DNA from: Crocinitomicaceae bacterium
GTDB taxonomy: Bacteria > Bacteroidota > Bacteroidia > Flavobacteriales_D > Crocinitomicaceae
Direction: 5' to 3'
DNA: 37,739 nucleotides
Assembly (NCBI GenBank): GCA_003247185.1
Contig: QKAV01000099.1
Location: 1-37,739 of the forward strand
A program made the position numbers and the translations under genes. Numbering within the stretch: the stretch's first letter is position 1; every line of letters starts with the position of its first letter. Under the pieces are notes generated by a model that saw nothing but the letters and a program-made list of their open reading frames with translations, was not told the DNA's origin and made no database searches. Shown piece by piece: positions 1 through 21,689 of the stretch.

Positions 1-1460
1 GCCTCAACATCCGGTGTTTTTTCAATATCAGAAAGTGTTTTGAAACCTTGATTCTGATTTCTCCATGTTAAGATTTTTTCGGCATCATTTCTATCAATCC
101 CTTTAAATGTCATCAAATCCATAGTATCAGCTACATTCAGGTTGAATGCATAGGCTGGTAAAGAAGGCCCGAATGGCCCCATCGCGTAAGGTCTGACGTT
201 AAATTCAGTATTAAGGACCCAAATTTCAGGCGATGGATTGCTTTTGAATTGATGTTCAGAGGACAATTCCCAACACGACTTAATGTAGGATGATTCAGTT
301 GGAAACATCTGGAGGTAAGTGTTCATAAATGCTGTAAACGGGCCTCCGGGATTGACATCTGTTTGTACTGAACCGGCAATAGCCATGAACATTTTAAGGT
401 ATTGGTTAGTTGTGACATCTATCTGTTGGGGAACTTTAACTGAAGTATCGGGAATAAAAGCACGATAGACTTCGGGTAGCATGAAGTTTTTGTTCATGTC
501 ATTCGTGACCACGGAACAAAAGAATGTTGCCAAAATTCCTTCAACGCTCATTGCTTCAGCATAACTGCGCAAACCAGCAGGATTTGGCCAAACTGCCGCA
601 TTCCTGTATTGGATATATTCGGTAGGATTGTTGATGCCGGTTGCCACACGGGCAGGCATCTTAGCCCAGTTGTTTCTTATAAAAGAATGACGCCGTATAT
701 TCTCAATTTTTTGATACCATACCGGCATTGTGGACGCATAAAATCCCATTCTCATTGGCCAGTTGTAATCACGCTCATAACCATACATCGTCCTGGATAA
801 CTCAATCTTCAGACGCCTGACTTTTGATTCAATTGTATCTTTGATTTTTTCATTTCTTTCAAATTCCAGGGTCATATATTGAAAATGTTCAGCAAATCCT
901 TCATCGAAAGCAGTATGATAATCAGTCAGGGTGGTAAAGTAGTGCAGAATTGGTGATCTGATTTCTTTGGTGTTGCCTGCTTTATTTGTCAGTATACCTA
1001 AAATAAGATGCCCCATTTCATGATTGAAAATTTGAGGGGGAGCTGCAATTTCATCACGTTGGCTATTTAGGTAGTTCTCATGTAAATCTACATAACCAGT
1101 ATTGGGTTTATGGAGAAGGCCTTGCGGTGTTTTGAGCCAAAATCCGGTGCAGGCAAAGCCTCCAGTATTTTTCGTGAAAGCCAGGTATGCCTCTTCGACT
1201 TCAGCTAAGTTCCCTTTAGTTACCTGATACTGTTGTGCCATTTTATAAAGAGTAACCACATGGTTTACAAATCCACGATCGAATAGTTGTCGTGCTTTCC
1301 TGAGTTGTGAATCTTTGGTAGTCATTAGCTTGAAAACAGGCTGCCCTTCTTTTTCTTCACCGGTTGGTAGAAGAAAAACAGGCGAAGATAAAGGTATCTG
1401 GCTGCGAACAATGATTGCAGATAAAAGGAAAATGATGATAATGAGGCTTTTGGATTTCAT
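1..1460 (-). CDS. Secreted zinc metallopeptidase (HExxH) with C-terminal helix-hairpin-helix, partial
   Basis: The reading frame starts at the ATG at 1460-1458 and is still open at the window edge, so 486 codons are visible and the C-terminus is missing. The N-terminus (MKSKSLIIIIFLLSAIIVRS, then Q) is a Sec signal peptide. Residues 147-151 are HEMGH, a zincin active site, and residues 186-192 are DEGFAEH, where E187 or E191 is the likely third zinc ligand as in gluzincins. The last roughly 40 visible residues (about 447-486) read LMTFKGIDRNDAEKIL followed by WRNQNQGF and SDIEKTPDV, which fits the ComEA/T2SK-type helix-hairpin-helix signature (L-GI---A--I---R---G-F----DL---P-V). I infer an exported peptidase that may also bind DNA or a protein through the HhH. 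Peptidase substrate and family are unknown to me. No upstream partner gene is visible. Confidence 0.75.
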   Translation of the reverse strand, partial: MKSKSLIIIIFLLSAIIVRSQIPLSSPVFLLPTGEEKEGQPVFKLMTTKDSQLRKARQLFDRGFVNHVVTLYKMAQQYQVTKGNLAEVEEAYLAFTKNTGGFACTGFWLKTPQGLLHKPNTGYVDLHENYLNSQRDEIAAPPQIFNHEMGHLILGILTNKAGNTKEIRSPILHYFTTLTDYHTAFDEGFAEHFQYMTLEFERNEKIKDTIESKVRRLKIELSRTMYGYERDYNWPMRMGFYASTMPVWYQKIENIRRHSFIRNNWAKMPARVATGINNPTEYIQYRNAAVWPNPAGLRSYAEAMSVEGILATFFCSVVTNDMNKNFMLPEVYRAFIPDTSVKVPQQIDVTTNQYLKMFMAIAGSVQTDVNPGGPFTAFMNTYLQMFPTESSYIKSCWELSSEHQFKSNPSPEIWVLNTEFNVRPYAMGPFGPSLPAYAFNLNVADTMDLMTFKGIDRNDAEKILTWRNQNQGFKTLSDIEKTPDVE

Positions 1461-1644: not shown

Positions 1645-2037
1645 ATGGATTATCAGGAATTTTTTATTGAAACAGGTCGTTTGTTTTATGCCATTGCTAT
1701 GGCTGACGGTGAGGTTCAACCCAGCGAACATAAACTTATCCTGGAAATGATTCGTCGAAATCTAAAAGAACTGGAGAGCAGTAGCGATGCATTTGGAACA
1801 GCTAATGCATATTATACCGAATTTGAGATTGAGCGGTTGATTGACTTCAAAGTAGAACCTCCTGAAGCATTCAACTCATTTATTGATTTTGCAACCGAGA
1901 ATCTGCCGGAGATATCACCTGAACTGAGGTTTCAATTGGTACAGATGGCTGAAAATGTAGCAGAATCATGGAATGGAGTTGTACATAGCGAGCATGATCT
2001 GCTTGTTCGTCTTAAAAAAACTTTAAAAGTTGAATAA
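1645..2037 (+). CDS. TerB-like helical protein
   Basis: This 130-residue soluble protein begins at the ATG at 1645 (MDYQEFFIETGRLFYAIAMA). The frame is open upstream to 1564, but the extra 27 residues are hydrophobic, Cys-rich and unlike the rest, so I chose the internal start. The segment AIAMADGEVQPSEHKLILEM (about residues 16-35) matches the core of the TerB/DjlA N-terminal all-helical fold, where an acidic ADG-(E/D)---E motif can bind a divalent cation. The rest is predicted helical and acidic. TerB-fold proteins occur in tellurite/stress and membrane-associated complexes, but no ter operon is present here, so the role is not established. It is convergent with the helicase gene and shares its terminator. 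Confidence 0.7.
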   Translation: MDYQEFFIETGRLFYAIAMADGEVQPSEHKLILEMIRRNLKELESSSDAFGTANAYYTEFEIERLIDFKVEPPEAFNSFIDFATENLPEISPELRFQLVQMAENVAESWNGVVHSEHDLLVRLKKTLKVE

Positions 2038-20135: not shown

Positions 20136-21689
20136 TTAGAATGGGATAGTCACTTTTATTCGGCCCCATTTATGCCAGCGAGAATTTTTAAACTCCGGAC
20201 TATAAAGGTACTGAATAAATGAAGCAGAATATTTCTTATAGGATATACTGAGGCCGGCTTCACCCAGCCAGACGATTCTGTTAAGGTCTCCGTCGGGAAT
20301 TGTATAAGGACTGCTGAGATTAAACATCCCTCCCTGCATGGTGGCATCGTAACCCACTGCATTTATTTCACTCTGAAGGCTAAGCTGATAGGTAAAGTAG
20401 GTGTACCAGGGTTGTTTTGGGGAAAAGTGAAGTGGGATGTTGTAATATCCCGAAAAGTAAGGTTTTCTGTTTCCCCATTGGTAGCGAATACCGGCGCCTC
20501 CGTTTGTATACAGGGTTCCTGCCTTTAAATTGGAGGTCAGGATTATTTCATGTCCGTATGATTGTAAAATACCTTTTTCCAACTGTATGTTATAATTGGC
20601 AACAACATCATTTGCAATCTGATTCTTCCAGCCCTTCGGGCGTTTTTCTTCTCCATGCAGATAGCTTTGGATTGCTCCTCCAAGGGATGCAGGACCTATT
20701 ACCCCAAGATCTATTTCACTAACCAGTCTGTATCTCTTTTCAGGGTTGTTGTAGATGCTCATGTGACCCAGAAACAGGTAAGCAGCCAATGGCCTGTCAC
20801 CATATTGTATCTCCTCCCTGACAGGAAACAGGGGTGTATATAAGTTCTGTACAATTGAAATTCCATAATTCGTTTCACCTTTTTTTTGCGGTGAGATAAG
20901 CAGGCTGCTTACGGGAGATTTTTGCCAGACCGGGGCGATATGTTCAATTCTCACCCCGTTGGTATAATAGTAGTCAGTATTGTCGAAAATATCATTATCA
21001 AACTTTATCTGCAGGAGAGGAATCTGACCTATTCGGTTGATGTATTCAGAAAATGGCGGAAGTTCTCTTGATGAGTATATCTCACCAGTCAAAGAGTCGA
21101 CAGGCAGTTCCTTCTTGATTGCTTTAAGCTGATTGACAGATAGGTATTCTCTGGCTGGAATGGGTATCTCTTCCTTTACCAAAGGCAATTGAGGACGTAC
21201 TGATGCTTTGGGTTTTACTTTTGCATGTATGGGTTGTTCCGGTGTCAGAATATAGCCCGGAATTACAGTTCTCAACAAACGAAGATTTGATTTGTAATCG
21301 TGGGTAAGCATAAGCGGTGGCATTCCCTTTTCATAATAAATAACCCCCCAGGGAGCCTTCATTCCAGAGATCCCGATAACTGTCTTTCTGTTGTCAGATT
21401 CTATAAACTCCAGAATTGCCGCATCTGTATACCGATAGTTGATTTTTAAACTGTCAAATAACCTGATTAATTTATTGTTGGAAGCAGTAAGGCTGTCGCG
21501 AAGCCTGTAATAGTCTGAGCCGAGCGCAATTTTCAGTGAATCGTCAGTTTTAGGAGGAGGGTTGTAAAAGACAGCTTCTGTCTCCTTAACAGCTAATTTG
21601 GTTACACTCTCCTTTTTCTCCTCTTTTCTTGAACAGGCAAAAACACCGGCAAGAATCAGGAGCAGAAATAAATTGTAAAAGAATTTCAA
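20136..21689 (-). CDS. Putative lipoprotein with C-terminal LpxR-like (DUF2219) beta-barrel domain
   Basis: The 517-residue protein uses a TTG start at 21689; no in-frame ATG lies nearby and the frame begins with a good signal (MKFFYNLFLLLILAGVFACS). C19 is preceded by VFA, an acceptable though not ideal lipobox. Residues about 20-220 are soluble. From about 225 on there are features of the LpxR/DUF2219 family: LQIKFDNDIFDNTDYYYTNG (228-245) with the conserved N-D and YTNG, then alternating beta strands, ending in Phe like outer-membrane barrels. LpxR removes 3'-acyloxyacyl chains from lipid A. The fusion of a lipoprotein-like N-terminal domain to the barrel is unusual. It heads the operon with the GAF kinase. 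Confidence 0.7.
   Translation of the reverse strand: MKFFYNLFLLLILAGVFACSRKEEKKESVTKLAVKETEAVFYNPPPKTDDSLKIALGSDYYRLRDSLTASNNKLIRLFDSLKINYRYTDAAILEFIESDNRKTVIGISGMKAPWGVIYYEKGMPPLMLTHDYKSNLRLLRTVIPGYILTPEQPIHAKVKPKASVRPQLPLVKEEIPIPAREYLSVNQLKAIKKELPVDSLTGEIYSSRELPPFSEYINRIGQIPLLQIKFDNDIFDNTDYYYTNGVRIEHIAPVWQKSPVSSLLISPQKKGETNYGISIVQNLYTPLFPVREEIQYGDRPLAAYLFLGHMSIYNNPEKRYRLVSEIDLGVIGPASLGGAIQSYLHGEEKRPKGWKNQIANDVVANYNIQLEKGILQSYGHEIILTSNLKAGTLYTNGGAGIRYQWGNRKPYFSGYYNIPLHFSPKQPWYTYFTYQLSLQSEINAVGYDATMQGGMFNLSSPYTIPDGDLNRIVWLGEAGLSISYKKYSASFIQYLYSPEFKNSRWHKWGRIKVTIPF

Follow-up and report, generated by a model that had tools for sequence, protein, structure and literature searches.

Gluzincins (clan MA(E); for example, Pfam Peptidase_MA_2) carry an HExxH motif followed by xEGxAx. 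ComEA, for which Bacillus and Geobacillus structures are available, presents a tandem helix-hairpin-helix (HhH) domain at the cell envelope, and a report on the Bacillus subtilis protein names the lysines K164, K193, K197, and K199 (PMC9747964). Transformation of Riemerella is reported to need a periplasmic protein with HhH domains (PMC8459023). A DNase that ends in a ComEA-type DNA-binding domain is also known (DNaseTA type); it is a nuclease and not a zincin, and a terminal membrane bundle goes unmentioned in the part of the publication that was accessible (PMC4777378).

The protein described here resembles each of these systems in part. It shares the order of HExxH and xEGxAx with the gluzincins, and with the DNaseTA-type nuclease the arrangement of a hydrolase, here a putative one, followed by a ComEA-type HhH. 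With ComEA it shares a tandem HhH that would be exposed to the envelope; unlike in ComEA, this domain is joined to a putative zincin and to a C-terminal hydrophobic segment.

The analyzed window, 37,739 nucleotides in length, is an entire contig (G000:C91) of a Crocinitomicaceae assembly that consists of 265 contigs and is 76.56% complete. A sequence-only reading of the gene at its edge (Table 1) had proposed a putative zincin and a ComEA-type HhH within a single exported chain, and this proposal was upheld by the motifs, by an HHH_3 match above the cut-off, and by a signal-like start. The signal-like segment is likely cut before Q21, as judged by eye. A complete ortholog of 625 aa, L002 (L002:5001-6878), was found in the MAG Bacteroidetes bacterium GWE2_42_24; it is 81% identical to the window protein over residues 1 to 486, and its residues 1 to 25 are likewise signal-like, with a hydropathy maximum of 2.06. 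It is concluded that the encoded protein is real, conserved, and restricted in lineage and that its architecture is uncommon.

Table 1. Positions in the window of the zincin-HhH gene, its recognizable parts, and the adjoining gene
Feature	Position	Strand	Remarks
Truncated zincin-HhH gene	3..1460	minus	486 aa from ATG; 3' end cut by contig end
Signal-peptide-like hydrophobic segment, residues 1-20	1401..1460	minus	by eye
HEMGH, residues 147-151, HExxH zinc-binding motif	1008..1022	minus	sequence, ortholog, shuffles
DEGFAEH at residues 186-192, with E187 as candidate third zinc ligand	885..905	minus	sequence, ortholog, shuffles
HHH_3 (PF12836) segment, residues 439-483	12..146	minus	second hairpin cut by contig end
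TerB-domain neighbour, 130 aa from ATG	1645..2037	plus	PF05099, E 2.8e-6

The zincin half was recognized from two motifs, HEMGH and DEGFAEH, both of which are identical in L002. HExxH with a downstream Glu, the sequence pattern of gluzincins, is present at the motif level, and E187, which sits 35 residues past H151 in a gluzincin-like spacing, would presumably serve as the third zinc ligand. The lack of a profile match, together with the 35 residues that separate H151 from E187, sets this half apart from the gluzincin families. It could be argued that the HExxH arose by accident in an unrelated orphan membrane protein whose HhH match is real: this motif alone occurred in 2,356 of 200,000 shuffles of the 486-aa protein, and zincin profiles gave no match. 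However, HExxH with EGxA 10 to 90 residues downstream was obtained in only 34 of the 200,000 shuffles, so that a chance origin of the pair is unlikely; furthermore, the motifs are kept in the ortholog. We therefore regard an accidental motif as very unlikely.

The sequence-only reading had proposed to check both halves by profile search; the HhH matched HHH_3, whereas the zincin half matched no family. For the latter, no match was obtained in Pfam (window protein, and L002 at E values up to 10), among PDB sequences at E values up to 10, or in NCBIfam (window protein and L002), and a zincin fold is therefore predicted from the motifs. Peptidase_MA_2 was considered as the family and rejected (3 of 60 genomes matched, 1 of them over the cut-off, and none in the genome of the window). 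Analysis of the 486 codons shared by the window and L002 gave a dN of 0.111 and a dS of 1.65. The last 50 codons, which encode the HhH, gave values of 0.131 and 1.57, respectively; for residues 136 to 260, dN was 0.112 and the synonymous distance was saturated. Since dN lies far below dS in both parts, the zincin and HhH halves are both maintained by purifying selection. These data bear on a second alternative, namely, that the zincin half is dead or is not a peptidase and that the protein serves in the membrane in a structural or sensory role. The missing family match would fit this explanation, as would the failure to obtain a confident fold (AlphaFold mean pLDDT of 34.7 for the L002 protein); however, HEMGH and DEGFAEH have remained unchanged across two species whose synonymous sites are nearly saturated, and we consider a dead domain unlikely.

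The full-length ortholog changes the picture of how the chain ends. The HhH had been described as C-terminal, which is correct for the visible end of the window reading frame; in L002, however, it is followed by a linker and then by a hydrophobic tail, which we estimate by eye from hydropathy to comprise about four membrane helices. Kyte-Doolittle windows exceeded 1.6 at residues 515 to 552, 553 to 599, and 603 to 624, and the low-confidence AlphaFold model placed helices at residues 514 to 549, 553 to 598, and 606 to 624, with its best part at residues 521 to 600 (ten-residue means of 54 to 75). From residue 502 onward, L002 has K or R at positions 502, 505, 509, 526, 548, 554, 562, 579, 600, 601, and 602, and E504 is the sole acidic residue. 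When the topology was assigned by hand using the positive-inside rule, K548/R554 and R600/R601/K602 fell in loops that should lie on the cytoplasmic side given a periplasmic N-terminal part, which suggests that the zincin and the HhH face the periplasm and that the inner membrane holds the tail. Two lysines, K526 and K562, lie within hydrophobic stretches, and K579 would be on the outer side. Because the full-length ortholog has a hydrophobic multihelix end, the earlier view of a free, secreted enzyme is not supported, and the protein is probably a periplasmic zincin tethered to the inner membrane. Neither Pfam nor NCBIfam recognized a type IX secretion sorting domain in L002, whose end consists of hydrophobic helices and shows nothing that resembles a type IX secretion tail. 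The evidence for the tail comes from one ortholog, and its presence in the window species is presumed; a query with the L002 tail did not find the counterpart in the 76.6% complete assembly of that species (best E value, 0.48).

The match of the HhH to a profile, on which the sequence-only reading had staked its interpretation, was found in both species. Residues 439 to 483 of the window protein matched PF12836 (HHH_3) with 29.3 bits (E value, 9.4e-7; Pfam cut-off, 27), and a six-frame search scored HHH_3 at this segment with 34.2 bits. In L002 the match is complete, with residues 439 to 494 covering profile positions 6 to 61 of 65 (30.3 bits; E value, 4.4e-7). The ComEA model TIGR01259 reached 20.6 bits with the truncated window protein and 16.9 bits with the complete L002 protein, below its cut-off of 152.35, and AlphaFold modeled a 96-aa HhH piece at low confidence (mean pLDDT, 43.8). 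Among PDB sequences, the L002 HhH was best matched by EEPD1 (9yi2_A; E value, 4.8e-5) and then by ComEA (8dfk_A; E value, 0.016; 58 residues aligned). The four ComEA lysines were placed on residues 108, 137, 141, and 143 of the 8dfk_A chain by matching their spacing, and the L002 residues at the positions of K164, K193, K197, and K199 are D459, D488, E492, and S494. At hairpin 1, L002 has KIS and the window protein has GID; at hairpin 2, they have DVD and DVE, respectively; none of these is the G-x-G that characterizes the ComEA hairpins. With G-x-G absent and all four lysine positions changed, DNA binding becomes less likely, and we consider it doubtful for this protein. Hairpin 1 of EEPD1 likewise departs from G-x-G, reading G-V-T. 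The net charge of the HhH was dropped as an argument against DNA binding, because the ComEA HhH, counted by hand, is slightly acidic as well.

Other HhH proteins of the order provide a measure of how much such changes mean. HHH_3 matches were present in 29 of 30 genomes, partly in the cytoplasmic Tex protein, and eight ComEA-like loci (approximately 285 to 395 aa) were picked from them by hand. At the position of K164, the key DNA-binding lysine of ComEA, K or R is found in none of their 17 HhH units, and G-x-G occurs in hairpin 1 of 6 of the 17 units and in hairpin 2 of none. Degenerate motifs are thus no proof of lost DNA binding in this order, and, by analogy with the Riemerella protein, its degenerate ComEA-like proteins may still bind DNA. 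A second group, L040 to L051, comprises 12 frames of 607 to 765 aa from 12 sampled genomes of the order; it was selected by length and a weak HHH_3 score, a choice that favors degenerate HhH domains, and leaves out two frames of similar length in G002 and G070. As in the zincin-HhH protein, a signal-like start (12/12) is combined with a degenerate HhH; unlike in that protein, the HhH lies near the N terminus, HExxH is absent (0/12), and the end is barrel-like in 11 of 12 (starts and ends judged by eye). All 12 lack G-x-G in either hairpin, and a Pfam scan of L045 recognized HHH_3 alone, under its cut-off. HExxH was found in none of the 20 frames of the two groups. These signal-like starts imply that an HhH outside the cytoplasm is ordinary in this order. 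Of the uncommon combination noted earlier, the architecture is indeed uncommon, whereas an extracytoplasmic location of the HhH (signal-like starts in 12/12 sampled proteins of the order) is not.

These observations can be brought to bear on the suggestion that the HhH binds DNA and that the protein acts in DNA uptake or on DNA-associated surface proteins. In its favor are the closest PDB sequences, EEPD1 and ComEA, the precedents of the Riemerella protein and the DNase (PMC8459023 and PMC4777378), and the degeneracy of the ComEA-like proteins of the order at the same positions, including the missing lysine. Several findings weaken it: the hairpin glycine pairs and all four lysine positions are altered; the genome, which also has a Tex protein of the cytoplasmic type, encodes a separate ComEA-like protein of 285 aa; and L002 is the sole full-length relative in the genomes searched. 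Furthermore, com genes, which had been considered as possible neighbors, did not appear, in that no com or competence family was recognized among the 23 window proteins scanned by Pfam, 20 of which were assigned to a family. The remaining frames were inspected by eye. No com gene was recognized on the known side of the zincin gene; on the other side, the contig ends. A role in DNA uptake or at DNA-associated proteins is, in our assessment, distinctly unlikely.

With slightly more confidence than doubt, we favor the explanation that the protein is a zinc peptidase tethered to the inner membrane and facing the periplasm, in which the HhH would be mainly a structural or docking module and not a DNA receptor. 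It can be envisioned that the N-terminal signal exports the zincin-HhH chain and that H147, H151, and probably E187 coordinate zinc in a domain of approximately 415 residues. This putative zincin domain may then cleave a membrane-proximal peptide or protein, and the HhH, which would lie after the catalytic domain and ahead of a C-terminal bundle with approximately four membrane helices, may make protein-protein contacts. A more speculative version, to which we give little credence, is that the protein represents a new peptidase family in which a ComEA-type HhH lost the DNA-binding signature and came to serve as an exosite or hinge, presenting periplasmic substrates to the tethered zinc peptidase, which would possibly process a component of the envelope or of DNA uptake.

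The zincin-HhH protein has a narrow known distribution. A scan of genome contigs gave one relative, L002, and a query with the full protein gave a match in 1 of 99 genomes, that of the window itself. A profile of the full protein (A1) matched 2 of 395 genomes of the phylum at E values up to 1e-5 (self and G312) and 3 of 240 genomes of the family at E values up to 0.001 (self, G492, and G495); the matches in G312, G492, and G495 cover the HhH and the following part only and contain internal stops. A zincin-only profile (A2) matched 2 of 399 genomes of the order at E values up to 0.01 (self and G029) and 1 of 395 genomes of the class (self); the phylum, family, order, and class sets overlap. The G029 match to the zincin half (E value, 0.00165) was dropped, the 472-aa frame resembling a TonB-type receptor. 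Plasmid and phage records yielded nothing, and viral contigs, where two of the automatic patterns used were short, gave no second full-length relative. The same search tool found relatives of the neighboring TerB-domain protein at 20 to 32% identity, which roughly gauges its reach; its first step is loose, and distant zincins may escape it. Among the literature matches listed, no title or opening of an abstract describes a zincin-HhH fusion, which does not prove that none has been published. On balance, it appears probable that the zincin half belongs to a lineage-restricted family, known from two genomes, that is undescribed in the libraries searched.

The G492 match was also set aside as a relative; locus L006 in that genome reads as a phospholipase-D-type protein with a terminal HhH. 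This locus (L006:1-1704, from the same bacterial family) resembles a phospholipase-D-type enzyme that ends in an HhH with G-x-G in hairpin 2 and, by reading, is another hydrolase-HhH fusion.

If the explanation of a tethered zinc peptidase holds, the Bacteroidota envelope gains an orphan zincin family whose anchor is unusual, and the ComEA fold a further instance of use outside DNA uptake. The case also illustrates that neither "secreted" nor "DNA-binding" can be read from a contig-truncated sequence or from a bare HhH match. Since the known distribution is two genomes, any wider impact is limited.

In both species, the zincin gene is adjoined by a divergently transcribed gene that encodes a TerB-domain protein. 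This neighbor is 87% identical to its L002 counterpart over 125 aa, and for the neighboring DEAD-box helicase the two species share 94% identity; compared with the 81% identity of the zincin-HhH proteins, these values indicate that the zincin gene changes fastest of the three. Relatives of the TerB-domain protein were detected in 6 other genomes of 60, all distant, and this gene may therefore share the narrow distribution. Elsewhere in the window, the gene at positions 20136 to 21689 encodes a protein whose N terminus, on visual inspection, is lipoprotein-like and which continues into an LpxR outer-membrane domain (Pfam E value, 3.3e-53).
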